In this document: in pieces, positions 4,303 through 35,190 of the stretch
Layout of the letters: each line of letters opens with the position of its first letter
Numbering within the stretch: the stretch's first letter is position 1
Origin: Prevotella sp.
GTDB lineage: Bacteria; Bacteroidota; Bacteroidia; Bacteroidales; Bacteroidaceae
Direction: 5' to 3'
Length of the DNA: 36,291 bases
Assembly (NCBI GenBank): GCA_017474515.1
Contig: JAFVHN010000111.1
Span: 1 to 36,291 of the forward strand
Program-made: the position numbers and the translations under genes
Notes under the pieces: generated by a model
The model's database searches: none
Seen by the model: the letters and a program-made list of their open reading frames with translations, nothing else
Told to the model about the DNA's origin: nothing

Positions 4303-4505
4303 TTTTGTCAAGATTTTTCAACAATTTTCTCATTCCTCAAATCGTTTGACCGCAAATTTCAAGGAGAAATCTTGAAGATTGAGAGGAGAGATCTTGAAGA
4401 TTTCTCCCCGAAATTTGCGGTCAAACTCCGGGGCATTTTCAAACCATTGATAATCAACAAGTTATAAAACCAGTCCAAATTGGCCAATTTTGTCAAGATT
4501 TTTCA
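4303..4505 (+). repeat. 203-bp intergenic repeat element, copy 1
   Basis: Box TTTTGTCAAGATTTTTCA occurs at 4303-4320 and again, in the same orientation, at 4488-4505. Between them is an 81-bp core (4345-4425) with arms 4345-4373 and 4397-4425: the outer 16 bp (TTTGACCGCAAATTTC and its complement) are perfect and the inner 11 bp (GGAGAAATCTT / AAGATTTCTCC) are perfect, with two unpaired bases between them. A conserved AT-rich stretch at 4441-4470 contains the imperfect palindrome TTGATAATCAA. This is the best-preserved copy and lies in a divergent promoter region. Confidence 0.8.
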
Positions 4506-4705
4506 TAAATTTTACACCGCTTCCTATCCACCTTCCTGATGCCCGACGAAGGTGGTTTTCCACGACATTTCATCGGCCCGGACAAGATGTTCAAAAGTAC
4601 CATTTTCTTTGCATGGTGTTGCAAACGGGCCCGAAAGCGGGCGACATTAGGGGAAATATATAAAAATAGGTATAAAAAAGCAACGTGTTATATCGAAAAA
4701 TCTGC

Positions 4706-4713
4706 TATCTTTG
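4706..4713 (+). promoter_or_regulatory. Candidate -7 box for the xylanase gene
   Basis: TATCTTTG fits the Bacteroidetes -7 consensus about 73 nt before the ATG. No good -33 TTTG is found at the right distance, so a regulator may be needed. Confidence 0.4.
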
Positions 4714-4785
4714 CAAAGGAATCATGGAAAGCGATGAGAAAAAGCCGTGAACGATTACGAACTATAACAAATAAATAATCAGCTT

Positions 4786-7464
4786 ATGAACACGAATTTC
4801 AGAGCCGTCAACCCGATGGCGGCATGGAAGGCGGCCTGTGTCTGCCTGGTGTTGTGCTTTTTCCCGATGACGGGGAGCGCACAACTTTCGACGAATGCCG
4901 ACAAGTTCCTTGGAAACATCACCACCCGCGGCCAGGTGGACTACGGCAACGAGCCGTTCTGGACCCTGTGGAACCAAATCACTCCCGAGAACGAATCGAA
5001 ATGGGAGTCGATAGAAGGCCGGGGCCGCGGCGTCTTCAACTGGGGCAGCGACAATGCCTACAACTATGCCAAGCGCCACAATTTCCCGTTCAAGTTCCAC
5101 TGTCTCATCTGGGGTGCCCAATACCCCTCGTGGCTCAACTCACTGAGCACCGAAGAGCAATACAAGGCCATTGAGGAATGGTTCGATGCCGTGAAGGCCC
5201 ACTATCCCGACCTGCCCATGATTGACGTAGTGAACGAAGCCGTGGCCGGTCACCAGCCCGCCCCCTACAAGAATGCGCTGGGCGGTGACGGCAAGACGGG
5301 CTTCGACTGGATTATCAAGGCTTTTGAAATGGCCCACGAGCGCTGGCCCGATGCCATCCTCATCTACAACGACTACAACACCTTCCAGTGGCAGCGCACT
5401 CAGTTCATCGACCTGGTGAGAACCCTGCGCGATGCCGGCGCACCCATCGACGCCTACGGATGCCAGTCGCACGACCTCACCGACATGAACGTCAACGACT
5501 TCAAGGCTGCCATGACCGAGATTCAGAATGCGCTGAAGATGCCCATGTACAGCACCGAATACGACATCGGCACCACCAACGACAGTCAGCAATTACAACG
5601 CTACAAGGAACAGATTCCCTATATGTGGGAGTCCGACTATTGCGCCGGCATCACCCTTTGGGGCTACATCTACGGCGCCACCTGGACCACCGACGGCAAT
5701 TCCGGCATCATCAGGAACGGACAGGACCGCCCGGCCATGACGTGGCTGAGGGAATACATGGCCAGCGATGCCGCCAAGAACGCCAAAAGTCCCTTCCCGG
5801 GAATGAAGAAAGAGGCATCGGTGTATGTGAAACCCTCATCTATCATCGTCACCAAGGGCGACGATGTACCGGTGACGGTGCGTGCACGGTTAAGCACCAA
5901 GACCATCGACCATGTGGATTTCTACGTGAACAACAACCTTGTGAGCACCATGACCGAAGCTCCCTACACAACGAGTTTCAACGCTCCTAATCTGGGGCAC
6001 TACAATCTGAAAGCCGTGGTGGTGGCCACCGACGGCACAGAGTATGAGCGCCTGTCGGGAGTAACCGCCTACAACCCGCGCCAGCCCTACAAAGGCGTGA
6101 CCGACCTGCCCGGAACCCTGGAGGCCGAAGACTTCGACTCGGGCGCTGAAGGCATTACGTTCCACGATAGCGACAACAACGACGAAGGAAACACCCACTA
6201 CCGCTCGGACAACGGTGGCGTGGACATCGTTACCGGCAACAACAGCCATGCCATCGGCTACACCAGCAACGGCGAATGGCTGGAATATACGGTGAATGTT
6301 CAGGAAGAGGGCATCTACAGTTACGACGCTTTCGTGTCGTCGGGCGTCACCTCGTCGTCGTTCAGCCTGTCGCTCAACACCGACGAGGGCCTTGTGCAAC
6401 TCACGCCGACCATTGCCGTGCCCAGCGCCGGGTCCAATAACTGGAGCACCTATTTCGACGTTTACGGACGGCTGCTCGTGCCGCTGAAGGCCGGGCAACA
6501 AGTCATTCGCATCAACATCACCGGCAGTAGCTGTAACATCGACAAAATTGTGTTCAACCACGTCAATATCGACAACGACATGCAGGTGGCCGTGAGCACC
6601 GACCCCGTGCAGGGCACCGTGAAAGAACCCGTCACCATCAAGGTTGACGCCTCGTCGCCCACCAGCACGATTGCCAACGTGAAAGTCTATGTGAACAACA
6701 TGCTCCAGAAGACCGTGACCGAGGCACCCTTTGAAGCCACCTACACGCCGAAGGAGAAAGGGTCATATACGATAACGGTATTTGCCACCGATGCAGAAGG
6801 CAGGGAGTCGGCACTGAAGACCTACAAACTGACCGTGAACAACAAGCGCATCGCCCACAAGGGCATTGTCAACATTCCCGGCATCTTCGAGAGTGAGAAC
6901 TTCGACCGGGGTGGTGAGGGCTTCACCTTCCACGATAGCGACAACAACGACGAGGGCGGTGCCAACTACCGCAGCGACAACGAGGGCGTGGACATCATTG
7001 CCGCCAACACCGGCTACGGCATCGGCTACACCAGCACCGGCGAATGGCTGGAATATAGCGTCAACGTGACGGAGGCCGGAGAATACACCTGGGAGGCCAT
7101 CGTTTCATCGGGACTCACCGGCTCGGGCTTCTCCATCGGCCTGGTACAAAACGGGCAGGTGCAGGAACTGGCCAAGGTGTCGGTACCTCAGACGGCAAGC
7201 AATAGCTGGGGCACCTACAAAACCGTGAAAGGAAATATCAGCAAGCGATTGGAGGCTGGCCAGCAAATCATCCGCCTCACCATTACCGGCTCTTATTGCA
7301 ACATCGACAAGGTGGAACTGAAGCTGAAACAGGAAACGGGCATCAGCACAGTGGCCGACGACGGACAAGCCCAGGGCCGCATCTTCAACCTTTCGGGCCA
7401 GGAGGTCAACGCTTCCTACAAAGGCATCGTTATCAGCAATGGGAAGAAGATGGTAAGGAAATAA
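4786..7464 (+). CDS. Secreted modular GH10 endo-1,4-beta-xylanase with two CBM6-like domains
   Basis: An 892-residue exported enzyme predicted to cut internal beta-1,4 bonds of xylan. A signal peptide covers about 1-33. The GH10 barrel (about 40-330) is recognised from ITPENESKW (65-73), the acid/base Glu151 in DVVNEA, the QSHD motif (227-230), and the nucleophile Glu258 in YSTEYD; LWGYIYGATW (291-300) is the late conserved strand. Next come an Ig-like domain (about 345-432), a CBM6-like domain (about 444-590), a second Ig-like domain (about 598-685) and a second CBM6-like domain (about 697-847). The two Ig-CBM6 pairs are internal duplicates: both CBMs carry FHDSDNNDEG and GEWLEY. A short C-terminal tail (about 853-892, GRIFNLSGQEV) resembles the Por-type sorting tails of Prevotella enzymes. 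The hydrolase gene downstream is convergent. Confidence 0.93.
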   Translation: MNTNFRAVNPMAAWKAACVCLVLCFFPMTGSAQLSTNADKFLGNITTRGQVDYGNEPFWTLWNQITPENESKWESIEGRGRGVFNWGSDNAYNYAKRHNFPFKFHCLIWGAQYPSWLNSLSTEEQYKAIEEWFDAVKAHYPDLPMIDVVNEAVAGHQPAPYKNALGGDGKTGFDWIIKAFEMAHERWPDAILIYNDYNTFQWQRTQFIDLVRTLRDAGAPIDAYGCQSHDLTDMNVNDFKAAMTEIQNALKMPMYSTEYDIGTTNDSQQLQRYKEQIPYMWESDYCAGITLWGYIYGATWTTDGNSGIIRNGQDRPAMTWLREYMASDAAKNAKSPFPGMKKEASVYVKPSSIIVTKGDDVPVTVRARLSTKTIDHVDFYVNNNLVSTMTEAPYTTSFNAPNLGHYNLKAVVVATDGTEYERLSGVTAYNPRQPYKGVTDLPGTLEAEDFDSGAEGITFHDSDNNDEGNTHYRSDNGGVDIVTGNNSHAIGYTSNGEWLEYTVNVQEEGIYSYDAFVSSGVTSSSFSLSLNTDEGLVQLTPTIAVPSAGSNNWSTYFDVYGRLLVPLKAGQQVIRINITGSSCNIDKIVFNHVNIDNDMQVAVSTDPVQGTVKEPVTIKVDASSPTSTIANVKVYVNNMLQKTVTEAPFEATYTPKEKGSYTITVFATDAEGRESALKTYKLTVNNKRIAHKGIVNIPGIFESENFDRGGEGFTFHDSDNNDEGGANYRSDNEGVDIIAANTGYGIGYTSTGEWLEYSVNVTEAGEYTWEAIVSSGLTGSGFSIGLVQNGQVQELAKVSVPQTASNSWGTYKTVKGNISKRLEAGQQIIRLTITGSYCNIDKVELKLKQETGISTVADDGQAQGRIFNLSGQEVNASYKGIVISNGKKMVRK

Positions 7465-7470
7465 TAAGTG

Positions 7471-7655
7471 AAGAGCTTTTTTAAGTGAAGAGTGAAAAGT
7501 GAAGAGTGAAGAATTTGCTGCTGCCATCGCTTAAAAGTGAAGAGTGAAAAGTGAAGAGTGAAGAATTTGCTTCCGCCATTGTTTGAGGCTGATTGCAAAT
7601 TCTTCACTCTTCACTTTTCACTCTTCACTTAAAAATACTCTTCACTTAAATATAC
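7471..7655. repeat. Inverted AGTGAAG heptamer array between convergent genes
   Basis: Two direct copies of an about 50-bp unit (heptamers AGTGAAG AGTGAAA AGTGAAG AGTGAAG then AATTTGC) start at 7481 and 7531. An inverted copy follows at about 7594-7635, and a further partial inverted heptamer at about 7639-7648. It begins a few bases after the xylanase stop and ends at the hydrolase stop. A transcript from either strand could form a long hairpin, so it may serve as a bidirectional terminator; no ordinary GC-rich terminator is seen here. Confidence 0.7.
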
Positions 7656-8561
7656 TCATTTAAGGAGCGCATTCTTTTCAATCGTCCAATCCTGACGCTT
7701 CAAAATTTCGCAGTTGTCGCCGACGAACATGGCGGCACCTTTCTTGTCGCCCTTCAGCTGCCAGTTGAGCCAGGCAAGGGCCACCACCGAAAATTCTCCG
7801 CCATGCGGCTGTCCGTAGGTTCCGCCATGACCCACAGGGTAATTGACGGCACAGGCCGGCACATGGTCAATGCGGTGGAAGTCATCCATGCCGTTGCCAT
7901 AGGCGATGTCTTTCTCGCCACCGAGGATATAGATGATTGACGAATGGATTTCCTTCAACTTCGACTTCGGCGGCATAGGCATTCCACCGACGGCGCTCGA
8001 CGCATTCTCATTGTTAAAAAGGCCGCTGTTGCACACCATGAGGGTTTTGATGCGCGGGTCGGCGCAGTTGTAGAGCGTTTGCAAGCCGCCGCACGACATG
8101 CCAGCCACGGCAATGTTCTCCAAGTCGATTTTCTGGTAATAAGGAGAATTTTTGTCGGCATTTTGAGCGAATGCCCAGTCGATGGATTCTATCTGCTGCT
8201 CGGTGGTTGACATGGGGCCGCGGTATCGTTCATCGTCCATGGGGATGTATCCCGTGGCCAACACGATGTAGCCGTAAGAGGCAATTTCGTTGAGGAACTT
8301 GTAGTGCTCATAGGGCGAGTTGGTGCAAGCCCCGTTGCCCCACACCAGGACGGGGAGCGCATTCTTCTTTCCGAAAGGCTTCAGGTCTTGCGGCACGAAA
8401 ATGGTGTGGGCCGGCAGCGACGCCTCTTCCTTCATGATGGCCTTGTAAGGCCCTTGTCCGCCGTCTTCCACCACGCGCTGTTTCTCTTCGGTTGTAAAAC
8501 TCATGCATGCGGCACTGGCCATCAGCAACAATGCCGCTCCGAAAAATGTCTTTGCTTTCAT
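7656..8561 (-). CDS. Exported alpha/beta hydrolase (esterase-like)
   Basis: A 301-residue alpha/beta-hydrolase-fold protein. An N-terminal signal (about 1-20) ends near SAAC, a weak lipobox, so it may be a lipoprotein or a cleaved periplasmic protein. The nucleophile elbow is GMSCG with Ser156. A candidate acid is Asp218 (GGEKDIAY), and candidate catalytic His residues lie in GHGGTYGQPHGG (244-255). An oxyanion-type motif WGNGACTNS (74-82) precedes the fold. The family includes dienelactone-hydrolase/PETase-like esterases. Its place next to the xylanase suggests action on ester-linked groups of plant polysaccharide, but this is inference: the genes are convergent, not co-transcribed. Confidence 0.8.
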   Translation of the reverse strand: MKAKTFFGAALLLMASAACMSFTTEEKQRVVEDGGQGPYKAIMKEEASLPAHTIFVPQDLKPFGKKNALPVLVWGNGACTNSPYEHYKFLNEIASYGYIVLATGYIPMDDERYRGPMSTTEQQIESIDWAFAQNADKNSPYYQKIDLENIAVAGMSCGGLQTLYNCADPRIKTLMVCNSGLFNNENASSAVGGMPMPPKSKLKEIHSSIIYILGGEKDIAYGNGMDDFHRIDHVPACAVNYPVGHGGTYGQPHGGEFSVVALAWLNWQLKGDKKGAAMFVGDNCEILKRQDWTIEKNALLK

Positions 8562-8603
8562 AATTGTAATGATTGATAATAAGTAATGAAATGATTTTCA
8601 GTG

Positions 8604-8633
8604 CAAAATTAGATATATTTTCCGAATTACAAG
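8604..8633 (-). promoter_or_regulatory. Promoter of the hydrolase gene
   Basis: On the minus strand CTTG (8633-8630), 18 nt, then TAATTTTG (8611-8604), about 43 nt before the ATG. The -7 box is good, the -33 box has one mismatch. Confidence 0.45.
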
Positions 8634-8728
8634 CAACTCGGAGAAAGGAATTTTGTATTCTTAAGAGGAAAGTTGAGAAAAAACTACGAATTATAAGAGT
8701 AGAATGATGATTTATGAAAAATTTTTCT

Positions 8729-8736
8729 TATTTTTG
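8729..8736 (+). promoter_or_regulatory. Candidate -7 box for aroB
   Basis: TATTTTTG lies about 97 nt before the aroB ATG; no matching -33 box is visible. The implied leader is about 90 nt. Confidence 0.35.
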
Positions 8737-8832
8737 CAGGCGGAAAAGCGTTTCGATGATTTTTGTGGTGGGTTGTGGTTTCTGACGAATCAGCCTGAAG
8801 CCCATCATTTATCAATATAAAGGTAGTTTGTT

Positions 8833-9891
8833 ATGGAGCAGAGAATTGTAATTTCAGGAAACTTGCAAAGCGACTTGGCCATGGCCATCGCAGAATGTGA
8901 GCACGACCGCATTTTCGTGCTTGCCGACGAAACTACTGCCGTTGCCTGCTGGCCGGCAGTAGAAAATGCCTTGTGCCTGCGAGGAGCAGAGCTGATCACC
9001 ATTGCCGCCGGCGACGAGCACAAGGGGCTTGAGAGCGTATGCCATGTTTGGGACCAGCTGCAATCGAAAGGGGCCACACGCCACTCGCTGCTCATCAACC
9101 TGGGCGGCGGCATGGTCACCGACCTGGGTGGCTTTGCGGCCTCCACCTTCAAGCGCGGCATCAATTTCATCAACATTCCAACCACCCTGTTGGCCATGGT
9201 CGATGCCAGCGTGGGCGGAAAGACCGGCATCAACTACGGTGGACTGAAAAATGAGATAGGCACGTTCTGCGATGCCAACATTGTCATTATCAGCACCCGG
9301 TGGCTGAAAACCCTCGACCGCGGGAACCTTCTCTCAGGATACGCCGAAATGCTGAAGCACGCGCTTATCAGTGACGAGAAAATGTGGTACGAACATGTCT
9401 CCATCGACTTCAACGGCCACCACCTCTACGAAAAATTGCAGCCAATGATTGGCGAAAGCATCAGGGTGAAAGAACGCATTGTTGAGGAAGACCCCCATGA
9501 ACGCGGGCTAAGGAAAGCCCTCAACCTGGGACATACCGTGGGGCACGCCTTCGAGAGCTTTGCCATGCTGAAGGGCGCACCGGTCCTCCACGGATATGCC
9601 GTGGCATGGGGCTTGGCTTGCGAGTTGTGGCTGAGCGCCGTGAAATGCGGATTTCCCACCGACCGCCTCCGGCAGACGGTCAGCTTCATCAAAGAGCACT
9701 ACGGCTCGCTGGCCATCAACTGCCGCCACTACGACGAACTTCTCTCACTGATGCGCCACGACAAGAAAAACACGTCGGGGAGCATCAACTTCACCCTGCT
9801 CGGAGGCATCGGCGACGTGCACATCAACCAAATCATAAGCGACGAGGACATCAAGTCGAGCCTTGACTTCTTTCAGGACAACTTCCTTTAA
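8833..9891 (+). CDS. aroB: 3-dehydroquinate synthase
   Basis: A 352-residue cytoplasmic enzyme that converts DAHP to 3-dehydroquinate in the shikimate pathway, using NAD and a divalent metal. The NAD-binding region is INLGGGMVTDLGGF (88-101), and the family signature IPTTLLAMVDASVGGKTGIN (115-134) is complete. Predicted zinc ligands are Glu172 (GYAEMLKH), His234 (LNLGHTVGH) and His253 (LHGYAV). Length is normal for AroB. The gene is monocistronic here, with its stop only 3 bp from that of the convergent PAP2 gene. Confidence 0.95.
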   Translation: MEQRIVISGNLQSDLAMAIAECEHDRIFVLADETTAVACWPAVENALCLRGAELITIAAGDEHKGLESVCHVWDQLQSKGATRHSLLINLGGGMVTDLGGFAASTFKRGINFINIPTTLLAMVDASVGGKTGINYGGLKNEIGTFCDANIVIISTRWLKTLDRGNLLSGYAEMLKHALISDEKMWYEHVSIDFNGHHLYEKLQPMIGESIRVKERIVEEDPHERGLRKALNLGHTVGHAFESFAMLKGAPVLHGYAVAWGLACELWLSAVKCGFPTDRLRQTVSFIKEHYGSLAINCRHYDELLSLMRHDKKNTSGSINFTLLGGIGDVHINQIISDEDIKSSLDFFQDNFL

Positions 9892-9894
9892 GAA

Positions 9895-10464
9895 CTAAAA
9901 AACCACGTTGAAGGCGAACGACTGCGGCGCGACGGCCACTTGGCAACTACCGCTGCTCTTTTTCAGCAAATGTTTACCAAGGAAATAAGAAAACTCGGTG
10001 GAAAGGATGCCGATGGCTGCTCCGGCGCACACATCTTCCCACTCGTGACGGTTACGGCGCAGGCGGTCGGCAGCGGTGACTCCCGCCACGGCATAGCCCG
10101 CCACGGAAATCCAAGGCGACACACGGCCGTACTCCTTGTGCAACAAATGGGCACCCGAAAAGGCGAACGAAGTATGCCCCGAAGGGAAGGCGCGGTGGTC
10201 GGTGCCGTCGGGACGCTCCTTGCTCACCGACTGTTTCAGGCCATAAGTGACGGCGACTGTAACCAACGTGGAAACTCCGGCATGGAAAAAGAAGTCGCGG
10301 GTTGTGCTACGGCTTTCAACGCCACACGCCTTCATGCCCACCGCCGCCGTCAGCGGCACAAAGCGCAGCACGTCGTCAATGCCGTCGCCATGGTAGGCCT
10401 TCTGCGCCGACGCCGTTGTTGCACAGAGAAAAATGAAGAAAAAAGCAGCGGCAAGTGTTCGCAT
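9895..10464 (-). CDS. Exported PAP2-family phosphatase
   Basis: A 189-residue type 2 phosphatidic acid phosphatase-like protein. The three family motifs are present: KQSVSKERP (K-x6-RP), FPSGHTS, and DRLRRNRHEWED (R-x5-H-x3-D, with Asp in place of the usual Ser before the Arg). An N-terminal hydrophobic stretch ending in ASA-QK looks like a signal peptide; two or three further hydrophobic segments follow. Likely substrates are lipid phosphates or undecaprenyl pyrophosphate at the envelope, but this cannot be decided here. The start used is ATG 10464; an in-frame codon two triplets upstream is TTG. Confidence 0.88.
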   Translation of the reverse strand: MRTLAAAFFFIFLCATTASAQKAYHGDGIDDVLRFVPLTAAVGMKACGVESRSTTRDFFFHAGVSTLVTVAVTYGLKQSVSKERPDGTDHRAFPSGHTSFAFSGAHLLHKEYGRVSPWISVAGYAVAGVTAADRLRRNRHEWEDVCAGAAIGILSTEFSYFLGKHLLKKSSGSCQVAVAPQSFAFNVVF

Positions 10465-10480
10465 CTTCAACTTTTTGCTG

Positions 10481-10512
10481 CAAAGGTAAGTAAAATAAAC
10501 TTAATACGGAAA
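10481..10512 (-). promoter_or_regulatory. Candidate promoter of the PAP2 gene
   Basis: TACCTTTG on the minus strand (10488-10481), with TTTC 20 nt upstream (10512-10509) as a weak -33 box. The -7 box lies 17 nt before ATG 10464. Confidence 0.4.
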
Positions 10513-10563
10513 TAAAAGGCTTAAAGTCCACAATATTTCACAATAACTCACATTATTATAATA

Positions 10564-10673: not shown

Positions 10674-10695
10674 ATTGAACAAAAAAGGGATGAAT

Positions 10696-18424: not shown

Positions 18425-19225
18425 ATGAAAAAGTTCTTATTATCATTAGTAACCGTGGTGGCCATCACTTCGGGCTACGCACAGAAAAATCTTGTACTCT
18501 ACTATTCGGAAACAGGAACGACAAAGACTGTTGCCGAGGAAATTCAGAAACAGCTCGGCGCCGACATCGAGGTCATTGAGGCCGTGGAGCCTTACACCGG
18601 CAATTTCCAGGAAACCATGCAACGCGGACAGCGCGAGAGGCAGAGCGGACAGACGCCGGCCCTGAAACCGCTGAAGAAAAAGATTGCCGACTACGATGTC
18701 ATCTTCCTCGGCTATCCCATCTGGTTCGGCACCTACGCCATGCCCATTGCCACGCTGGTCAAGGAAAACGACTTCGCCGGCAAGACCGTCATACCGTTCT
18801 GCACTTTCGGCAGCGGAGGGCTGAACACCTCCACGGAGGCACTGAGGAAAGCGCTGCCGAAGGCCAACATCCGGGAGGGCTACGGCGTGCGCACAGCACG
18901 GGTGAAAGCAGTGGAAAAAGAACTCGACCGCTTCTTGAAAGAGAACGGCTACAAGAAAGGAAAGGTAGAAAAATTGCCCGATTACTCCGAGCAAGTGCCG
19001 GTGACCGACGAGGACAAAGTACTTTTCAACGAAGCCTGCTCAAGCTATCAGTTCCCGTTGGGCACCCCGAAGACGGTTGGCAAGCGTTCCACACCATACG
19101 GCACCGACTATAAGTTCACGGTGAGCAGCAGGGGCATGGACGGAAAAGAGGCCACTTCCACCATCTTCGTAACCATAGAAAACACCGCCGGAGCCAAGCC
19201 CGAATTTACTCAAGTGGTCAGATGA
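18425..19225 (+). CDS. Exported flavodoxin-like protein with C-terminal extension
   Basis: A 266-residue protein with a signal peptide (about 1-19, ending SGYA-Q). A flavodoxin domain follows at about 21-178: the FMN phosphate loop is YYSETGTTKT (26-35), with flavin-contact loops in GYPIWFGTYAMP and TFGSGGLNTS. Residues from about 190 form an extra C-terminal domain (beta-rich, with SSYQFPLGTPKTVGKRSTPYG) that I do not recognise. Flavodoxins are usually cytoplasmic electron carriers; export to the periplasm suggests a reductase role for envelope or extracellular substrates. It is transcribed alone, divergent from the acid-sugar operon. Confidence 0.82.
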   Translation: MKKFLLSLVTVVAITSGYAQKNLVLYYSETGTTKTVAEEIQKQLGADIEVIEAVEPYTGNFQETMQRGQRERQSGQTPALKPLKKKIADYDVIFLGYPIWFGTYAMPIATLVKENDFAGKTVIPFCTFGSGGLNTSTEALRKALPKANIREGYGVRTARVKAVEKELDRFLKENGYKKGKVEKLPDYSEQVPVTDEDKVLFNEACSSYQFPLGTPKTVGKRSTPYGTDYKFTVSSRGMDGKEATSTIFVTIENTAGAKPEFTQVVR

Positions 19226-19568
19226 TTTTAAAGTGAAGAGTGAAAAGTGAAGAGTGAAGAATTTGCTTCCGCCTTTTAAGTGAAAAGTGAAAAGTGAAGA
19301 GTGAAGAATTTGCTGCCGCCTTTTAAGTGAAAAGTGAAAAGTGAAGAGTGAAGAATTTGCTGCCGCCTTTTAAGTGAAGAGTGAAAAGTGAAGAGTGAAG
19401 AATTTGCTGCCGCCTTTTAAGTGAAAAGTGAAGAGTGAAGAATTTGTGTCGATTATCAGATGGCGGCAGCAAATTCTTCACTCTTCATTCTTCACTCTTC
19501 ACTTAAAAAGCGGCAGCAAATTCTTCACGCTTCATTCTTCACTCTTCACTTAAAAAGGCTCTTCACTT
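19226..19568. repeat. 47-bp tandem repeat array with inverted units
   Basis: About four and a half plus-strand units start at 19226, 19274, 19321, 19368 and 19415, at an exact 47-bp period apart from a one-base insertion in the first. Each has AGTGAA-G/A heptamers followed by GAATTTGC and a TGCCGCC tail. Two inverted units follow, again 47 bp apart (GGCAGC at 19465 and 19512). The array fills the gap between the convergent flavodoxin and sulfoxide reductase genes, and its unit is clearly related to the array at 7471-7655. Confidence 0.85.
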
Positions 19569-21188: not shown

Positions 21189-21261
21189 GGGAGTGTATGA
21201 AAAAACAGAAACCACACTTTTTATACAAAAATCAGGTGGATAACAAGGCGTATAGAAATTA

Positions 21262-21464
21262 TGAAAAATCTTGACAAATTAAACAAAAAACAAGGCGTTT
21301 TCTAACTAGTTGAAAATCAGATGGTTTAAAAACGCTGCAAGTTTGACCGCAAATCTCGGGGAGAAATCTTCAAGATCTCTCCTCTCAATCTTCAAGATTT
21401 CTCCTTGAAATTTGCGGTCAAACCTTTCCCATGGTAAATGACAGCTTGAAAAATCTTGACAAAT
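21262..21464 (-). repeat. 203-bp intergenic repeat element, copy 2
   Basis: Reverse orientation. Left box at 21464-21447, core 21422-21342 (81 bp), right box at 21279-21262. Box-to-core distances are 42 and 63, identical to copy 1. Core arms retain TTTGACCGCAAAT and GGAGAAATCTT with their complements. ATCAGGTGGATAACAAGG beyond the right box resembles the sequence following copies 1 and 4. Confidence 0.8.
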
Positions 21465-21549
21465 CGCCGTTTCTGCAAATGAATATTTATTCACCATCCT
21501 CAAGAGATACGACTCCGTCAGCCGGCAGAACATTTAGGGAAGGTCATGA

Positions 21550-27246: not shown

Positions 27247-27277
27247 CAAAGATAACACTTCTTTGCGCATTTGCAAA
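27247..27277 (-). promoter_or_regulatory. Promoter of the acyl-CoA ligase gene
   Basis: On the minus strand TTTG (27277-27274), 19 nt, TATCTTTG (27254-27247), a full consensus match, 23 nt before ATG 27223. Confidence 0.7.
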
Positions 27278-27529
27278 AAAAATGTGCAATTTTTTTCATC
27301 TTAAAGGCGAAAAAGCATGGGAAAAGGGACTTTATGGGAAGCAAACAGGCAGACAAATCATTATTTTGCGTCTTTTAAAAGGATTTGTCAATCATTTGAA
27401 TTATGTCGATTTCTTTCATTTACCCCCAAAATCGGCCATTTGAAAGCTGAGCCATGGATTATGGTCGCCTTGTGACCGATTTGAATTTACTCTTTATCTT
27501 GCGACGGATTGTGGAATGGGTAAAAATGG

Positions 27530-27733
27530 TAAAAGATTTTGACAAAATACACAGTTTTAACAATCATCTTGTAATTTATTGAATTTCAATGGTTTGCAAA
27601 TCGACTTTGGTTTGACCGCAAATTTCGGGGAGAAAAATGGCAGTTTGAGAGGAGAGATTTGGCAAATCTCTCCCCGCAATTTGCGGTCAAACCTTCTGGA
27701 GCAACCCAAAAACCATGAAAAATCTTGACAAAA
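27530..27733 (-). repeat. 203-bp intergenic repeat element, copy 3 (204 bp)
   Basis: Reverse orientation. Left box at 27733-27716, core 27691-27611 (81 bp), right box at 27547-27530 (diverged). Distances are 42 and 64. The outer arms TTTGACCGCAAATT are intact; the inner arms have changed together so that pairing is kept: the plus strand now has GGAGAGATTTG facing CAAATCTCTCC. That exchange suggests selection for the hairpin or gene conversion between arms. Confidence 0.75.
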
Positions 27734-27810
27734 AAAAGGGGCTCTTGCGCAAAGCCCGTTATCAAATTGTTATGAAGAAAGCTACGAAAACAACCATCCT
27801 AACGACCGAT

Positions 27811-27860: not shown

Positions 27861-27876
27861 AAACGATTTGATGTGT

Positions 27877-29208
27877 TCAGCTGCAGGCGGCACTGTGAAG
27901 GATTTCGCCGATAGTGGGGTGAATGTGTGTGATGTCGGCGAGTTGCTGCAGTGTTGTTTGCCGGCAGATGAGTGCCGCCACCTCCTGAATAATGTCGGCA
28001 GAATGACTGCCACAAGCGTGGCAACTGATGATGGTGCCGTCGGGCCGGGCAAGGAGCTTGAGCATGCCGTCTGACTGTCCAGTGGCCAGTGCGCGGCCAT
28101 TGGCCCTCCAGTAGGCTTTCTTACAAATGTAGTCGATGCCTTGTGCTTTGCATTGTTCCTCAGAAGGTCCCACTGCCGCAGCCTCGGGATTGGTGAAGAT
28201 GGCAGCTGGCATGGGAGCAGGCAGCAGCACCTCCTCTTTTAGAATATGCCTCACGGCAGCTACGGCCTGCTGCTCCGCGGCATGGGCGAGCATGTGATGG
28301 GTGTTGACGTCGCCGATGGCATAGATGCCACTGACGGCTGTCTCACAGGTAGCACTGTCTGCGACGATGCCGCGTTTAGCATCCCACGTTAAGCCGGCAT
28401 TGTCAAGGCCAGGACTGAAGCGCGGTTTCCTTCCCACGGCCATGAGCACTTTAGCAACTTGCAGCGTTTCTTCCTTGCCCTTGCGGGTGTAAGTAACGGT
28501 GCCGTCGCCGATGGCGGTGACAGCGGCTTGCATGATGAAAGTAATGCCGCGCTGTGCAAGAATTTTCCTAAGCCGCCGCGCTATGTCATCGTCGATGGCG
28601 GGAAGACATTCCTTCAAGTATTCCACGACGGTGACTTCCACACCGAGGGCGTTGTAGATGCTTGCGAACTCCATGCCGATGACTCCGGCCCCGATGATAC
28701 AGAGCGACAGGGGCAGGGTGTCTTCAGAAAGAAGTTGGGTGGAGTCCACCACCATATCGTGGCCCGTGACAGGCAGAGGAAGGGTGTTGTTCTCAGAGCC
28801 TGTGGCAATAATGATGTTGGGGGCTGTGTATTCCTGCCCCGTGCTCTCGGCCACCACGGTGTGGTTGTCGCGAAGCAGGGCGCGGTCCCTTACAAGCGTG
28901 ATACCAGGCCTGGCGAGCATGGTTTCCAGCCCCTGCCTCAGCTGAGCCGTCACGGCATCCTTCCTGGCCACGATGGCCTTGAAATCAATGTCGAAAGCGA
29001 GGTTGGCAATGCCAGCCGGCTGTTGGCGCAACTGCTGTATGAGCTCAGCGTCGTGGGCATAGCACTTCGTGGGAATGCAACCGTGATTGAGGCATGTGCC
29101 TCCAAGCTGGTCTTTCTCAAAGATGACGACCTGCAAGCCATTGCGTGCGGCATAGTCGGCTGCACGGCAACCGCCGGGACCAGCACCTATTATAATAATG
29201 TCGGCCAT
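27877..29208 (-). CDS. lpdA: Dihydrolipoyl dehydrogenase (E3 / L-protein)
   Basis: A 443-residue FAD/NAD enzyme that reoxidises dihydrolipoyl groups on GcvH. The FAD fold is GAGPGG (8-13); the redox disulfide is GGTCLNHGCIPTK with Cys39 and Cys44; a second GAGVIG marks the NAD domain; the C-terminal HPTIGE has the active-site His430 and Glu435. His in place of the common Val between the cysteines is a mild variant. It ends the glycine-cleavage operon, 61 nt after gcvPB, so it probably serves this system. Confidence 0.92.
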   Translation of the reverse strand: MADIIIIGAGPGGCRAADYAARNGLQVVIFEKDQLGGTCLNHGCIPTKCYAHDAELIQQLRQQPAGIANLAFDIDFKAIVARKDAVTAQLRQGLETMLARPGITLVRDRALLRDNHTVVAESTGQEYTAPNIIIATGSENNTLPLPVTGHDMVVDSTQLLSEDTLPLSLCIIGAGVIGMEFASIYNALGVEVTVVEYLKECLPAIDDDIARRLRKILAQRGITFIMQAAVTAIGDGTVTYTRKGKEETLQVAKVLMAVGRKPRFSPGLDNAGLTWDAKRGIVADSATCETAVSGIYAIGDVNTHHMLAHAAEQQAVAAVRHILKEEVLLPAPMPAAIFTNPEAAAVGPSEEQCKAQGIDYICKKAYWRANGRALATGQSDGMLKLLARPDGTIISCHACGSHSADIIQEVAALICRQTTLQQLADITHIHPTIGEILHSAACS

Positions 29209-29269
29209 TTTTACTTCGTTGTTTAGAAAAAGTTGGAAAACGCTTGCGAAGATTTATCGCAAGCGATTA

Positions 29270-30745
29270 TCACTTTTCATTTACATATTTCACTACCGGA
29301 TGCCTGGCGGCGAGCACGTCGTCCACCCGTCCGGCTGGCGTGCGCCGCGGAGCCTCCTTCAGGGCATCGGGATTCGTTATGGCCTCTTCCGCTATTCTCC
29401 GCATGACGCCGATGAAGCTGTCGATAGTCTCCTTGCTCTCGTTCTCCGTGGGCTCTATCATCATGCTCTCATGGAAAAGCAAAGGGAAATAGATGGTTGG
29501 TGCATGATAGCCTTCGTCGAGCAACCGCTTGGCAATGTCCATCGTGGTGACGTGCGTTGATTTGTCTTTCAGCCCGTCGAACACAAATTCATGCTTGCAG
29601 AGTCCCTCAATGGGCAACAGGTAAAGGTCCTTGAGGCTTTCCTTGATATAATTGGCATTGAGCGTGGCCAGGGGGCCGACCATCTTTATGTTCTCCTTGC
29701 CAAGCGAAAGGATGTAAGCAAAAGCCTTGAGCACCACGGAGAAATTGCCGAAGAATGCCCCCACGCTGCCGAGCGCTTCGTCGCCGTCGGTATTTACAAA
29801 GAGGCGACCGGCCTTGTCCTTCTCCACGCGGGGAACGGGCAGGAATCTCTCCAGTCCTTTCCTTACTCCAACAGGACCCGAACCGGGACCGCCGCCGCCA
29901 TGAGGCGTTGCAAATGTCTTGTGGAGGTTGATGTGCATGACGTCAAAGCCCATGTCGCCAGGACGACATACACCCAACATGGGGTTGAGATTGGCACCGT
30001 CGTAGTACATCAGCGCGCCACATCCATGAACGATTTTCTCTATCTCGGGAATATTCTTCTCAAAGAGTCCGAGGGTGTTGGGATTGGTCATCATAATGGC
30101 CGCCACCTCGTCGGGAAACCTGTCCACTACGGCGCGAAGGTCGTCAAGGTCGACAAGGCCGTCGGCGCCGCTCTTCACCTCCACCACGTCGAGTCCGCAG
30201 ACGGCTGCCGAAGCAGGGTTGGTGCCATGGGCTGAGTCGGGAATGATGACCTTGGTGCGGCAGTCGTCATGGCGGCTGCGGTGATAGGAACGTATGACCA
30301 TGAGGCCCGTCAGTTCACCATGTGCACCGGCAAAGGGATTAAGGGTGAAGGTTTCCATCCCCGTGATGGCAGCAAGCATCTGTTGCATGGCGTCATAAAC
30401 CTTCAGGGCACCTTGGCAGGTGTGGGCGGGCTGCAATGGATGCAGGGCGGTGAAGGCCGGCATGGCAGCCACCTCCTCATTGATGAGGGGGTTATATTTC
30501 ATTGTACAGCTGCCCAGGGGGTAGAAACCGTTGAAGACGCCAAAGTTGTTCTGGCTGTGGTTGGTGTAGTGTCTCACCACTGTCATCTCGTCGCATTCAG
30601 GCAGGGAGGGTTGCTCACGACGTAACAACTCCGGAGGAAGTTCTTTTGTGGAATGTCCGCCATAACGGTTGTTGGGCAGTGAATAGCCGCGGCGACCGGG
30701 GCGTGACAATTCAAAAATCAGGTTGCCGTATAGTTTGTTGTTCAT
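29270..30745 (-). CDS. gcvPB: Glycine dehydrogenase (decarboxylating) subunit 2
   Basis: A 491-residue PLP-dependent half of the glycine cleavage P-protein. The PLP Lys276 is in NLHKTFATPHGGGGPG; SAHGTNPAS (171-179) and DGANLNP are other active-site segments. Many Bacteroidales have fused P-protein, while split forms occur too; here PA and PB are separate genes 33 nt apart. PB carries the cofactor lysine. Confidence 0.95.
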   Translation of the reverse strand: MNNKLYGNLIFELSRPGRRGYSLPNNRYGGHSTKELPPELLRREQPSLPECDEMTVVRHYTNHSQNNFGVFNGFYPLGSCTMKYNPLINEEVAAMPAFTALHPLQPAHTCQGALKVYDAMQQMLAAITGMETFTLNPFAGAHGELTGLMVIRSYHRSRHDDCRTKVIIPDSAHGTNPASAAVCGLDVVEVKSGADGLVDLDDLRAVVDRFPDEVAAIMMTNPNTLGLFEKNIPEIEKIVHGCGALMYYDGANLNPMLGVCRPGDMGFDVMHINLHKTFATPHGGGGPGSGPVGVRKGLERFLPVPRVEKDKAGRLFVNTDGDEALGSVGAFFGNFSVVLKAFAYILSLGKENIKMVGPLATLNANYIKESLKDLYLLPIEGLCKHEFVFDGLKDKSTHVTTMDIAKRLLDEGYHAPTIYFPLLFHESMMIEPTENESKETIDSFIGVMRRIAEEAITNPDALKEAPRRTPAGRVDDVLAARHPVVKYVNEK

Positions 30746-30778
30746 TTGTTCAACTGTTTTTAGAATTTACCTTTTCAC

Positions 30779-32101
30779 TCACAATCCCCGGATGATTTCG
30801 ACCAGGCGGTCGGTTTCTTCCTTCGTCCTCTTTTCAGTAACGGCAAACATGACGGTGTGGTCCGACACCTTCACCCCGGCCATAAATCCGTGCTGGGCAC
30901 AAATGCGTTGCAAAGCGTCGATGTCGCCATCGTAATCGAGGCAGAACTCATTGAAGAAAGGCTTCCGCCAGGTCATCCTGAACTTGCCGGTCTTGAGGAG
31001 TTCGTCACAGAGGTAATGGGCACCTTGGTAAGAGAGTTCAGCGGCCTCCTGAAGCCCCTGCTTTCCCATGAGTGCCATATAAACGGTGACGAAAAGCGCC
31101 ATGAGGCTCTGGTTGGAACAAATGTTCGACGTGGCTTTCTGCCTGCGAATATGCTGCTCGCGGGCCTGCAGGGTGAGCACAAAAGTGCGTTGCCCGCGGT
31201 TGTCGGTTGTCATGCCGACAATGCGCCCGGGCATCTTGCGAATCAGTTTCTCCGTGCAGCAGAAATAACCCAAGTACGGACCACCGAACGACATGGGAAT
31301 GCCAAGGCTTTGCGCATCGCCCACGGCAATGTCGGCACCCCATTCCCCGGGCGACTTCAGCGCGGCAAGGTCCGCGGCCACGGCGTTCATAATAAGAAGT
31401 GCCTTGGCATCGTGGATGCAGTCGGCAAAGCCCGTATAGTCTTCTACTATGCCGAAGTAGTTGGGCGTCTGCACCACCACGCCGGCCACGCCGCCTTCCT
31501 TAAGCAACCGTACCAATTCCTGGCGGTCGGTAACGCCGTCGGTGGCCTTGACGGATGCTATTTCAATGCCATGGAATTTGGCGTAGGTGTCCACCACCCT
31601 ACGGACCTTGGGGTCCACGGTGTCGCTGACAAGCACCTTGTTGGCTTTCTTGGCGGCCTGCACAGCCATGATGACGGCTTCGGCCGTGGCCGTGGCGCCA
31701 TCATACATCGACGCATTCGACACCTCCATTCCCGTCAGTTCGGCCATCATACTCTGGTACTCAAAGATGTAATGGAGGGTGCCTTGGGAAATCTCTGCCT
31801 GATAAGGGGTGTAGCTGGTGAGAAATTCCGAACGCGAAACGATGGCCGGCACCACCGCCGGCGTGTAGTGGTCATAGCTGCCGGCACCGGCAAAGCACAC
31901 CAGGGGCGTGTTGCACTTGGCCAGCTCTTCCATGTAGCGCCTGATTTCCATCTCGCTCATGGCAGGGGGAATGTCGTAGTCGCCTACGAAGCGAATGGAC
32001 TCGGGAATGTCGGCAAACAGCTCTTCAAGCGAGCCAGCCCCCGTGCGCTCAAGCATTTCCCTGATGTCCTGCTCGGTATGTGGAAAATACTTATACGTCA
32101 T
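30779..32101 (-). CDS. gcvPA: Glycine dehydrogenase (decarboxylating) subunit 1
   Basis: A 440-residue N-terminal half of the P-protein. It starts MTYKYFPHTEQDIREMLE, with FAGAGSYDHYTPAVV, SRSEFLTSYTPYQAEISQG and NASMYDGATA as family-typical blocks. It lacks the PLP lysine, as expected, and acts as a heterotetramer with GcvPB. Its ATG is 3 nt after the gcvH stop. Confidence 0.95.
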   Translation of the reverse strand: MTYKYFPHTEQDIREMLERTGAGSLEELFADIPESIRFVGDYDIPPAMSEMEIRRYMEELAKCNTPLVCFAGAGSYDHYTPAVVPAIVSRSEFLTSYTPYQAEISQGTLHYIFEYQSMMAELTGMEVSNASMYDGATATAEAVIMAVQAAKKANKVLVSDTVDPKVRRVVDTYAKFHGIEIASVKATDGVTDRQELVRLLKEGGVAGVVVQTPNYFGIVEDYTGFADCIHDAKALLIMNAVAADLAALKSPGEWGADIAVGDAQSLGIPMSFGGPYLGYFCCTEKLIRKMPGRIVGMTTDNRGQRTFVLTLQAREQHIRRQKATSNICSNQSLMALFVTVYMALMGKQGLQEAAELSYQGAHYLCDELLKTGKFRMTWRKPFFNEFCLDYDGDIDALQRICAQHGFMAGVKVSDHTVMFAVTEKRTKEETDRLVEIIRGL

Positions 32102-32104
32102 AAC

Positions 32105-32488
32105 TCATAACTTCGATATAAAAGCCTCGTAGTCCTGGGCACTCATCAGTTGGTCAAGCTCTGCCTTGTCAGACAATTCCACCTTGATAATCCAGTTTTC
32201 AAAGGCGTCGGTGTTGATAAGTTCCGGTTCGTCTTCCAGGGCCTCGTTCACTTCCACCACCACGCCGCTGACGGGCGAAATGAGGTCGCTGGCGGCTTTC
32301 ACGCTCTCCACGGCCCCGAACTCTTCGCCGGCCGTCACCTCGTCGTCCACTTCGGGCATGTCAACATAAACGACATTCCCCAGCGCATTCTGCGCATAAT
32401 CGGTAATGCCGATGTAGCCAAACGCTCCGTCCACTCTCACAAACTCATGACTCTCTGAGTAATAGAGTCCTTCCAATACTTTTGCCAT
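32105..32488 (-). CDS. gcvH: Glycine cleavage system H protein
   Basis: A 127-residue lipoyl carrier of full length. The lipoylation site is Lys64 in AVESVKAASD. It shuttles the aminomethyl group from P-protein to T-protein and is reoxidised by the E3 in the same operon. The lipoate ligase two genes upstream can supply its cofactor. Confidence 0.96.
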   Translation of the reverse strand: MAKVLEGLYYSESHEFVRVDGAFGYIGITDYAQNALGNVVYVDMPEVDDEVTAGEEFGAVESVKAASDLISPVSGVVVEVNEALEDEPELINTDAFENWIIKVELSDKAELDQLMSAQDYEAFISKL

Positions 32489-32506
32489 AATATTCTAATG
32501 ATTTGG

Positions 32507-33598
32507 TTATTTTTTATAATGTTTATCGTAGAACTTTTTCTTGACGACCACGCCGGGAAACACCTTCTTGCGTATCTGAATGTCGAGGGCCGTACCCAAC
32601 TTGGCGTATTCGGCATCCACCAACGCCATGCAGACGCTCTTGTCGGTGGAAATGGTATGGTAGCCGGTGGTCACTTCCCCCACCCTTTCGCCGTCTTTCA
32701 GCACGGTGTAGCCATGGCGTGGAATGGCTTTGTCGCTCAGCTCAATGCCGACGACGCGCTGTTTCACGCCCTCCGTCTTTTGTCTGAGCAATGCCTCACG
32801 CCCCACAAAGTCCTCTTTGTTGAACTTGCAGAACATGCTCAGACCGGCCATCACGGGCGAAATGTCGGCCGAAAGCTCGTCGCCATAGAGCGGCAACCCC
32901 ACCTCAAAGCGCAGGGTGTCGCGGCAACCCAGGCCACACGGCACAGCCTTCCCCGATGCCATGAGCAGGTCCCACTGGCGGCGTATGTATTCATGCGAGC
33001 CGTAAATCTCGAAACCGTCCTCGCCGGTGTAACCCGTGCGACTGATGATGATTTCCTCCGTGCCGGTGTTGATGGTCTTGGCGGTGTAGAACACCAGTTC
33101 GCCGCACTTCAGCCCCATCACTTCTTCAACCACGGCCTCGGCCTCGGGACCTTGCACGGCCAACTGGCCGTAGTAGTCGCTTTGGTTTTCCAGCACGACA
33201 TCAAATCCCGCCGACTGCTTCTGTATCCATTCCCAGTCCTTGTCGATGTTGGCGGCATTGATGACCAGGAAGAAGTGGTTGTCGCCTATTTTATAAACAA
33301 GCAGGTCGTCAACCGTTCCGCCGTCGTCATAGCACATCATGCCATAATAAATCTGGCCCAGCGGGGCGGCGGTCACGTCGTTGGTGAAAATATGGTTGAC
33401 ATACCGCTCTGCGTCGGGCCCGCATACGGTCACCTCTCCCATGTGCGACACATCAAACACGCCGCAATGTTGTCTGACGGCCTGGTGCTCACTGACAATT
33501 CCCGAATACTGGATGGGCATGTCGAAGCCTCCGAAAGGCGACATCTGTGCACCCAGCGCCACATGTTTGTCGTAAAGGCAAGTTCTCTTGTTTTCCAT
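32507..33598 (-). CDS. gcvT: Glycine cleavage system T protein (aminomethyltransferase)
   Basis: A 363-residue tetrahydrofolate-dependent aminomethyltransferase. N-terminal GGFDMPIQYSGI and HCGVFDVSHMGE and the ISRTGYTGEDGFEI segment are family-typical, as is the C-terminal barrel. It releases ammonia and makes methylene-THF. The ATG is one base after the lplA stop. Confidence 0.96.
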   Translation of the reverse strand: MENKRTCLYDKHVALGAQMSPFGGFDMPIQYSGIVSEHQAVRQHCGVFDVSHMGEVTVCGPDAERYVNHIFTNDVTAAPLGQIYYGMMCYDDGGTVDDLLVYKIGDNHFFLVINAANIDKDWEWIQKQSAGFDVVLENQSDYYGQLAVQGPEAEAVVEEVMGLKCGELVFYTAKTINTGTEEIIISRTGYTGEDGFEIYGSHEYIRRQWDLLMASGKAVPCGLGCRDTLRFEVGLPLYGDELSADISPVMAGLSMFCKFNKEDFVGREALLRQKTEGVKQRVVGIELSDKAIPRHGYTVLKDGERVGEVTTGYHTISTDKSVCMALVDAEYAKLGTALDIQIRKKVFPGVVVKKKFYDKHYKK

Positions 33599-33599
33599 T

Positions 33600-34571
33600 T
33601 TAATCTATTATTAAGTTAAGAAATTCTTGTTTGCTGAGATTGCGGACAATGCTCTCCAGGTGGTCGGGCAGCACCGACGACAGGGTGTCCGCGTCAAGCC
33701 TCTTGCCCACCAGCGGGCGGCAGATGAGCGCATCGGTGTCGGCCAGCGCAAAGAAGTCGCCTTTCAGCTCCATGCCCTTCACAACGCCGTTCTTCAGCGA
33801 CATCATCACCGTCACCGTTCCCACGCCGTCAATACGCCTTTGTTTTTTCACCGTATAACGGGGGTCTTTGCCATAGATGAAGCCAGCGTCGAGATATTCT
33901 TTCTCTATTTCCTCAATGCTTCTGCACTCCCCGGCCGTCATGATGTGCTCCTGGTTGCACAGGAAGGCGGTCATGCCGCGGTTGATGTCATCCAGCGACA
34001 ACGATGTAAAGTCTTTCAGAAGCGAGATGCGGCTTTTTACACTCCTCACGCCATGGCTTTCCAACTTCTCACCGTCGGGCGTCAGGCAGCAGGTCATGTT
34101 CTCCATGTCGGTGTCATAGAGCAGCGTGCCATGCACAATGCAACGGCTACCGAGACGGAAAAAAGCCGTGCCGCTCACCTTGCCGCCGCTCAGCAACAGG
34201 TCGTTGCGGCCGGTCACCTCCACAAGGATGCCCATGCTACGAAGCGCCATCTTTATATATTGTACATATTTATTATATGCCAGGCCCACATGCGAGCCGC
34301 TGGTGACATACGAAAGCATGAGGTTGCCCCTGTCGGCATATACGCAGCCGCCGCCGCTCTTCCTGCGATAGAGGGCCACGCCTTGCCGACGGCAGTAGTC
34401 CTGGTCCACTTCATTGGCCACAAGCTGGTTCCTGCCGATAATGACGCTGGGCGGAACGCTCCATGTGAAGAAGGCATCGTCGTCATCCATTGTCCTGGCC
34501 ACATATTCCTCCATGGCGAGATAATAACTTAACCGCCGTTCGTCGTCAAAAGGAAGGACCATGTGGACCAT
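33600..34571 (-). CDS. lplA: Lipoate-protein ligase A-type
   Basis: A 323-residue ligase with the LplA fold: ATP/lipoate motif RRKSGGGCVY (69-78), DRGN, and the catalytic Lys131 in KVSGTAF. A C-terminal accessory domain follows. ATG 34571 (MVHMVLPF) is chosen because the promoter at 34634-34603 precludes the longer 387-codon frame. First gene of the operon, so lipoate attachment to GcvH is its likely main job. Confidence 0.92.
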   Translation of the reverse strand: MVHMVLPFDDERRLSYYLAMEEYVARTMDDDDAFFTWSVPPSVIIGRNQLVANEVDQDYCRRQGVALYRRKSGGGCVYADRGNLMLSYVTSGSHVGLAYNKYVQYIKMALRSMGILVEVTGRNDLLLSGGKVSGTAFFRLGSRCIVHGTLLYDTDMENMTCCLTPDGEKLESHGVRSVKSRISLLKDFTSLSLDDINRGMTAFLCNQEHIMTAGECRSIEEIEKEYLDAGFIYGKDPRYTVKKQRRIDGVGTVTVMMSLKNGVVKGMELKGDFFALADTDALICRPLVGKRLDADTLSSVLPDHLESIVRNLSKQEFLNLIID

Positions 34572-34602
34572 AGCGTTTGATGTAGTTGAAAAGATTACCC
34601 TG

Positions 34603-34634
34603 CAAATATAATAACATTTTGCGGGGAAACCAAG
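34603..34634 (-). promoter_or_regulatory. Promoter of the lplA-gcv operon
   Basis: On the minus strand CTTG (34634-34631), 20 nt, TATATTTG (34610-34603), about 32 nt before ATG 34571. No glycine-riboswitch-like structure is apparent in the short leader. Confidence 0.6.
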
Positions 34635-34802
34635 AAAAACGACACTTTTTTTCTTCTCCCACCCACCAACGGCACTTCCTTCCAAATAAGCATTTGAAAC
34701 TTTAAATGGCCTTAAAAAATCAAAATGACAGAAAAAGCCCGTTTTCGCAACATACAGAAACAAGAACCCCCTTTTAGATGAAAAAATATAAGGATGAAAA
34801 AA

Positions 34803-34950
34803 CTCAACTTTCTGATATAGTTCAGGAGTTACAGGAGTTCAGGAGTTCAGACAATACTTCCAACCTCTGCAAACTGACGAAAAAGGAATCTTCAGAACTA
34901 TTGTCTGAACTTCTGTAACTCCTGAACTCCTGTAACTCCTGAAAGTTGAG
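34803..34950. repeat. Long inverted array of CAGGAGTT units
   Basis: The left arm (34803-34856) starts CTCAACTTTC and holds three CAGGAGTT units of 8-9 bp, ending in CAGACAATA. The right arm (34899-34950) is its inverted form with four units, ending GAAAGTTGAG. The arms differ by one unit and a 10-nt insert; the loop is about 42 nt. It is a third unit family with the same folded design as those at 7471 and 17163. Confidence 0.75.
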
Positions 34951-34987
34951 CGAATGCAAAACTTTTGTCATTTAGCGAAGCGCATTG

Positions 34988-35190
34988 TCTTGTCAAGTTT
35001 TTTTACCGGTTTTTTCTTCCCCAAAATAGTTTGACCGCAATTTTCGAGGAGAAATCTTGAAGATTGAGAGGGGAAATTTGCGGTCAAACTCCCCGAAATT
35101 TGCGGTCAAACTCCGGGCATTTTTAAACACACTGATTATCAATACGTTACAAAACTAACAAAATTTTCACGATTTTGTCAAAATTCTTTA
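34988..35190 (+). repeat. 203-bp intergenic repeat element, copy 4 (rearranged core)
   Basis: Left box at 34988-35005, core 35030-35110 (81 bp), right box 35173-35190; distances 42 and 63. The right half of the core has two copies of the terminal arm GAAATTTGCGGTCAAA (35073-35088 and 35095-35110), 22 bp apart, the first replacing the usual inner arm without changing the length. TTTAGCGAAGCGC (34971-34983) before the left box is shared with copy 1, and TATCCGCCTTC follows the right box. Confidence 0.75.

Follow-up and report, generated by a model that had tools for sequence, protein, structure and literature searches.

Proteins that dock at dispersed chromosomal sites are exemplified by MatP, SlmA, and Noc, and in the iterons of plasmids and the 22-bp end sites of Tn7 and Mu, protein sites are arranged in rows at intervals of about two helical turns. 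Among bacterial interspersed mosaic elements (BIMEs), BIME-1 is described as interacting with IHF, and a chromosome-organizing role has been suggested for BIMEs (PMC2817692). The BrickBuilt miniature inverted-repeat transposable element (MITE) of Porphyromonas gingivalis is reported to occur in 19 copies and to be made of 23-nt units without spacers, with small insertion sequence (IS)-like inverted-repeat ends (PMC4596501). Here, we analyzed a 36,291-nt stretch of DNA from Prevotella sp. (contig JAFVHN010000111.1, hereafter the window) that holds four copies of an element built around a row of 15-bp words with a 22-bp pitch. Intergenic arrays of this pitch form a real class, which is widespread in the genus and characterized less by its sequence than by its pitch.

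The element is a ~232-bp unit with a four-word core

The first-pass annotation of the window had reported a 203-bp repeat in four copies, each with an 18-bp box, an 81-bp inverted-repeat core, and a second box in the same orientation. All four copies were indeed found at the places and in the orientations given there, with both boxes and the core; the true extent, however, is ~232 bp, the core is an array of words, and the unit contains an additional dyad. Aligned together with their flanks, the copies show a mean column identity of 74% over 317 columns. Each comprises, in this order, box 1 (TTTTGTCAAGATTTTTCA), the 81-bp core, the dyad (ATTTnnAAnnnnTTGATNATCAAnnnnTTACAAAA), box 2 in the same orientation as box 1, and ~27 further conserved base pairs, which bring the total to ~232 bp. 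The core divides into 15+7+15+7+15+7+15 bp, and four near-palindromic 15-bp words at a 22-bp pitch describe it better than a plain hairpin. Between the core and box 2 is the conserved dyad, TTGATNATCAA, whose arms are TTTACAAA-like, and the two boxes, compared as direct repeats, are 77% alike (59 copies).

Copy 1 occupies positions 4302–4533 on the forward strand, with box 1 at 4303–4320, the core of four 15-bp words at 4344–4426, the dyad around TGATAATCA, with an IHF-like sequence present, at 4440–4469, and box 2 at 4488–4505. Copy 4 is also on the forward strand (34987–35219; box 1, 34988–35005; core, 35029–35111; dyad, 35119–35154; box 2, 35173–35190). The other two copies are on the reverse strand, copy 2 at 21234–21465 (box 1, 21447–21464; core, 21341–21423; dyad, 21298–21331; box 2, 21262–21279) and copy 3 at 27502–27734 (box 1, 27716–27733; core, 27610–27692, with TGCCA/TGGCA centers in the inner words; dyad, 27569–27602; box 2, 27530–27547). 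A further repeat, TCATTTATCATTTAGCGAAGCG, adjoins some elements in two genomes, at ~4262–4296 and 34966–34981 of the window and at ~497250–497280 of G383, a complete genome of the same genus. The boxes were also considered as a Bacteroidetes promoter and rejected by eye, since their spacing to the −7 box does not fit.

The elements form a genome-wide family held to one length

The source genome (G000) comprises 3.51 Mb in 118 contigs and is 88% complete. With copy 1 as query, BLAST found at least 40 places in it, the query itself included, and at least 150 matches, every one over model positions 1–162, came from a covariance model built on the part from core to box 2, which bears out the expectation that such a model would uncover further copies. 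A survey of an 824-kb sample, that is, the window plus 40 stretches from 8 contigs, located 60 elements, or one per 13.7 kb; these places were derived from 122 model matches by reading the table by hand, the remainder being taken as second matches to the same places. Extrapolation yields ~255 elements if the remaining genome is alike. A profile built from the 60 copies added a single match, 25 bp long (E 0.09). BLAST, covariance model, and survey together identify the elements as a genome-wide family and not as chance occurrences. A crude caller of open reading frames (ORFs) placed 56 of the 60 copies between two ORFs, 2 at contig edges, and 2 overlapping a predicted ORF; the first-pass annotation had placed its four copies outside genes.

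Both edges of the unit were evident in the 60-copy set, information dropping to 0.22 bits or less one base to the left of the box and last exceeding 0.5 bits 24 bases right of box 2. The whole element measured 231–234 bp in 31 of 32 copies, and the 257 bp of the remaining one are probably an alignment effect at the end of that copy. Lengths in the 60-copy set, where box 1 stands at a fixed offset and variation is possible only from core to box 2, were 231–232 bp in 58 copies, 228 bp in one, and 185 bp in one. Pairwise identity in this set averages 65% (range 38–86%); because many insertions and deletions would be expected at 65% identity if length were irrelevant, we infer that length is constrained. 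The constant spacing had been attributed at the outset to selection on architecture or to recent spread. The former is supported, also by the occurrence of the same architecture with other sequences in other genomes of the genus, whereas identities of this order (mean 65%, maximum 86%) lend no support to recent spread in the source genome. An origin of the copies in one local duplication was likewise unsupported.

The 22-bp pitch is kept across the genus while the words change

A place counted as an array, whatever its sequence, if it had 34 or more matches out of 59 at the lag tested; short-period repeats were removed and lags 15–30 compared. This census scored 35 arrays at lag 22 in the source genome (0–9 at each other lag), 55 in 946 kb of G383 (0–9 at other lags), and 28 in 561 kb from 15 other genus genomes (0–6), of which 10 had at least one. 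By the same census, 200 kb of Escherichia coli K-12 contained no array at lag 22. Stretches chosen irrespective of arrays were available for nine genomes, four of which had any (7 arrays in 260 kb), while 52 P. histicola loci, selected for holding arrays, yielded 70 at lag 22 versus 0–2. On a crude ORF map, all 55 arrays of G383 are intergenic. The 35 arrays of the source genome include 22 that belong to the 232-bp element and 13 others, labeled intergenic, with unrelated words and without dyad or clear box. Similarly, the dyad score exceeded 10 in 36 of the 38 G383 arrays assigned to family A and in none of the 17 others. The framed elements may thus have an origin other than that of the bare arrays.

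Clusters of three or more [AG]AAAG-N5-CTTT[TC] units were sought in G383, and 552 kb contained 20; in 19 of them, four units extend over 81 bp, and the remaining one has three units. Word centers are mainly TGGCA/TGCCA, TTGAA/TTCAA, and GGGAA/TTCCC. The words of the source genome, namely TTTGACCGCAAATTT, two AAATC-TTGAA-GATTT-like words, and AAATTTGCGGTCAAA, have arms unlike those of G383 at an equal pitch. At lags 22 and 44, autocorrelation over 26 cores reached 0.546 and 0.464, respectively, compared with 0.25–0.26 in shuffled cores. This set combines the four window copies with 22 of 28 loci from 18 other genomes (19 genomes in all; L160, L165, L172, L173, L174, and L177 were left out); the cross-genome loci were found with a model, R1, so that a similar core length is built in, and the words nonetheless differ. 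Within G383, an element mostly takes its words from a single one of two classes, with a within-element agreement of 0.93 versus 0.50 (0/5000; 34 elements). Complementary word pairs also exceeded column shuffles there, but this shuffle breaks the two word classes as well, and the excess was not counted as pairing. A single orthologous array, P. vespertina L267 and P. histicola L299, was 80% identical over 319 bp including flank; the two differ at 0 of 40 sites in word arms, 7 of 20 in centers, and 5 of 21 in spacers, the frame being preserved while the letters change. Conservation of position is demonstrated at this locus only; the flank alignment of one G383 array ends at a gene in the nearest relative found, 77% identical.

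Model R1 detected weak relatives in at least 19 of 397 other genus genomes (seven candidates scored per genome), and in 1 of 79 other genomes in an earlier draw. Four AAAAG/CTTTT units were present in at least 120 stretches of named GTDB contigs. Among the 80 matches listed, P. histicola accounts for 52, P. brunnea for 4, P. bivia, P. vespertina, P. jejuni, and Segatella baroniae for 1 each, uncultured Prevotella/Prevotellaceae assemblies for 18, and Candidatus Onthomorpha and Mediterranea for 1 each. Of 299 genus genomes, 31 carried the three-unit pattern (25 of the 130 good-quality ones), one of them with as many as 133 matches, as did a single genome among 295 sampled from the order; the pattern was absent from the source genome, whose arms differ, and its reversed control gave 0 among the matches listed. 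The exact arms of the source genome had no match in GTDB contigs, a set that may omit close relatives of the window. Viral carriage was considered and discarded, neither these arms nor the AAAAG word pattern having a match in IMG/VR, as was carriage by plasmids or phages, among which copy 1 had no match.

Arrays avoid one another at short range

The 51 gaps among the 60 copies of the source genome have a coefficient of variation (CV) of 0.58 and a minimum of 3.7 kb, whereas uniform placement gives a CV of 0.94 (0/5000 as low). A stricter null, restricted to intergenic regions and weighted by their class, required dropping copies outside called intergenic regions, which left 49 gaps; under it, the CV was 0.57 versus 0.89 (P 0.0002), and 1 of 49 gaps fell below 4 kb versus 10.9 expected (0/5000). 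A REP control for the spacing yielded only 6 clusters. For the 13 other arrays of this genome, the nearest main element is on average 9.9 kb away; from intergenic sites without an array, it is 5.5 kb away (P 5e-5 with uniform and 2.5e-4 with class-weighted placement). For G383, the null assumed a weight of 3 for divergent regions. None of the 54 gaps among its 55 arrays was shorter than 4 kb (9.5 expected; 0/5000), nor was any within family A alone (4.6 expected; P 0.006), and the 17 arrays outside family A all keep a distance of 5.95 kb or more from the nearest family A array (P 5e-5). The sequence shows that arrays exclude each other at short range, those with unrelated words included. Ordinary repeat biology hardly accounts for such exclusion among unrelated-word arrays, which was observed in both species and makes chromosome-scale selection in Bacteroidota directly testable. 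Sites recognizable by their 22-bp pitch instead of their sequence can, moreover, be mapped in any genome, and a protein that binds them could be fished directly. With a mean gap of 17 kb, G383 also contains 112 kb without any lag-22 array (C1, ~106700–219000).

A protein-docking array is tentatively favored

We tentatively favor the view that the element is a protein-docking array with an IHF/HU-like bend, perhaps chromosome-organizing, its binding protein being putative. This view draws on what the DNA itself shows, namely the architecture, the length constraint, the constant pitch with changing words, the copy number, the intergenic position, and the short-range exclusion, unrelated-word arrays included. 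Each near-palindromic ~15-bp word would be a likely dimer site, and a pitch of 22 bp, about two helical turns, would align the bound proteins on one DNA face; the dyad, with its IHF/HU-type sequence, would bend the DNA beside the core, and the AT-rich direct boxes bracket the whole element. The simplest reading would be one of dimer sites spaced by two helical turns, with a bend site next to them. A fast-evolving dimeric DNA-binding protein would occupy the words and an IHF/HU-like protein the dyad, and placement would reflect chromosome organization, for example domain boundaries or bridging points. In this view, the element probably spread as a discrete unit at some point in the past and was subsequently maintained by selection. 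A protein-binding or chromosome-organizing site, still putative, is also the best fit among the roles listed in the first-pass annotation. The E. coli IHF consensus, WATCAANNNNTTR, was found in 27 of the 60 elements, against 0.0135 expected per element from genome density, and is placed beside the core and not between units.

Several observations weigh against the docking array. Shared descent accounts for part of the IHF count, and the protein that would bind the words is hypothetical, none having been found. No lag-22 array was present in the stretches read from 5 of the 15 other genus genomes, and the cores of L159 and L170 (2 of 26) are without the 22-bp peak. In G383, arrays outside family A lie at an unremarkable mean distance from those of family A (P 0.46), neither family A (CV P 0.18) nor the full set of arrays (CV P 0.40) is significantly even in its overall spacing, and divergent regions are not preferred, with 16 divergent, 28 tandem, and 11 convergent arrays for 66, 192, and 60 such regions (318 in total). 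P. histicola has 10 of 18 gaps below 4 kb, one of 0.4 kb, in 8-kb loci where only short gaps are visible; its closer arrays weigh against a universal spacing rule. Its element-sized duplicates, furthermore, are what a mobile element would give. Linkage to an HU-like gene was examined as well and proved only local, with a phmmer match beside 6 of 28 loci, all in G380, G003, and G240. At L152, L163, L171, L173, L176, and L177 (G380, G003), an HU-like gene, the element, and a gene whose end differs strongly from copy to copy form cassettes; by eye, these variable-end genes resemble C-lectin-type variable proteins, and one copy has 17 matches in G380.

The main rival is a mobile BIME-like element, namely a non-autonomous unit of MITE or repetitive extragenic palindromic (REP)/BIME type, with a putative transposase and no host function, whose spacing would come from transposition immunity or purging of close copies. 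We regard this as possible, though doubtful. It would be in keeping with a discrete ~232-bp unit with sharp edges, with many copies and species-specific words, and with palindromic units next to an IHF-like site, as in BIME-1. P. histicola loci, moreover, gave 47 alignments longer than 200 bp, the 25 longest measuring 213–345 bp at 68–89% identity, and because these approach the size of the element, unit-wise dispersal at some time is likely. However, no 3–9 bp match indicative of target duplication was enriched at the offsets scanned (60 copies), and terminal inverted repeats were not seen, the best end-to-end identity being 0.43 versus 0.41 for mismatched partners (59 copies). A RAYT/REP origin was not supported: RAYT (PF01797) had no match in 8 of 12 carrier genomes, and the lone RAYT-like gene of the source genome (L031:1354–1899) is flanked by a separate REP-like palindrome, GGACATAC..GTATGTCC. 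That palindrome also occurs in the window, at 1352–1387 and 4161–4196. Further points against mobility are the length held at 65% identity with no truncated copies, and an exclusion that extends to unrelated-word arrays, given that the non-A arrays of G383 and the 13 of the source genome are without frame. The mobile element proposed in the first place retains the sharp edges and the P. histicola duplicates in its favor.

A global transcription regulator with operator arrays would agree with words that resemble dimer operators and with the frequent occupation of divergent regions in the source genome (29 of 58, versus 24 of 185 tandem and 3 of 47 convergent), which persists in regions of at least 400 bp (19 of 30, 9 of 42, and 2 of 9, respectively). 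Because G383 shows no divergent preference, this bias is not general; exclusion over several kilobases is not expected of operators, and the words differ between species. We consider this explanation quite improbable. An RNA-level element is unlikely, and an RNA hairpin, a role listed in the first-pass annotation and exemplified by RNase III targets like NEMIS or ERIC repeats, has very little probability. A long imperfect hairpin can form from the core in the window copies, and two small covariation measures lean toward RNA, pairs changed on both sides (3 vs 1.2; 20/500 shuffles as high) and further pair types (15 vs 13.1; 14/500) being slightly raised. Standard pairs (97.0% vs 96.7% shuffled) and the covariation score (0.078 vs 0.074 shuffled; 115/500 as high) nevertheless stayed at about the shuffled level, the tandem pitch is what genomes keep, and Rfam at gathering thresholds gave no match within the window.

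A broader extension of the docking array, which we consider unlikely as a whole, is that genus-wide arrays of 22-bp pitch partition Prevotella chromosomes, the format being kept and the words rewritten along with a fast-evolving binding protein, under one spacing rule across word families. If so, the format would consist of pitch, dyads, and kilobase-scale exclusion, with words taken from a small alphabet in each species, and the cell would read different word families as one system. Word classes could then serve as addresses for like-with-like bridging, and the arrays would be the bacterial equivalent of boundary elements, turning over in a drive-like manner.

Two other kinds of repeats were noted in the window. 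Tandem 47-bp units rich in AGTGAAGAGTGAAAAGTGAAG lie at 7432–7650 and 19180–19568, with inverted copies nearby, and the ORF at 4786–7464 contains a 288-bp repeat of 72% identity (6064–6351 and 6832–7119).

Comparison with known repeat systems

The initial statement that the element matches no known family held both in the Rfam search of the window and in the literature search, where no description of Prevotella 22-bp-pitch arrays was encountered. Correia/NEMIS elements, as presented in PMC2229807, are likewise small intergenic repeats carrying an IHF site, and are described there with terminal inverted repeats, whereas the Prevotella element has none and an array core instead. BrickBuilt, in the account of PMC4596501, shares with it the intergenic location, a host that is a related member of the order, internal tandem units, a leader and a tail, and many copies per genome; the Prevotella element differs in its 22-bp pitch, varied words, lack of inverted ends, and ~255 copies by extrapolation. 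Unlike iterons, Tn7/Mu ends, or the sites of MatP, SlmA, and Noc, Prevotella arrays are many per chromosome and their words vary with the species.

The likeness to REP/BIME sequences, as characterized in PMC2817692, extends to high-copy intergenic palindromic units, regular spacing, mixed orientation, and species specificity; indeed, the trait of high-copy extragenic palindromic units in regular rows is also displayed by the Prevotella arrays. These differ in the fixed 22-bp pitch of 15-bp words, in the missing RAYT match in 8 of 12 carriers, and in words that are unrelated between species at a constant pitch. Within Prevotella, the arrays also exclude one another. In kind, they come closest to BIMEs.

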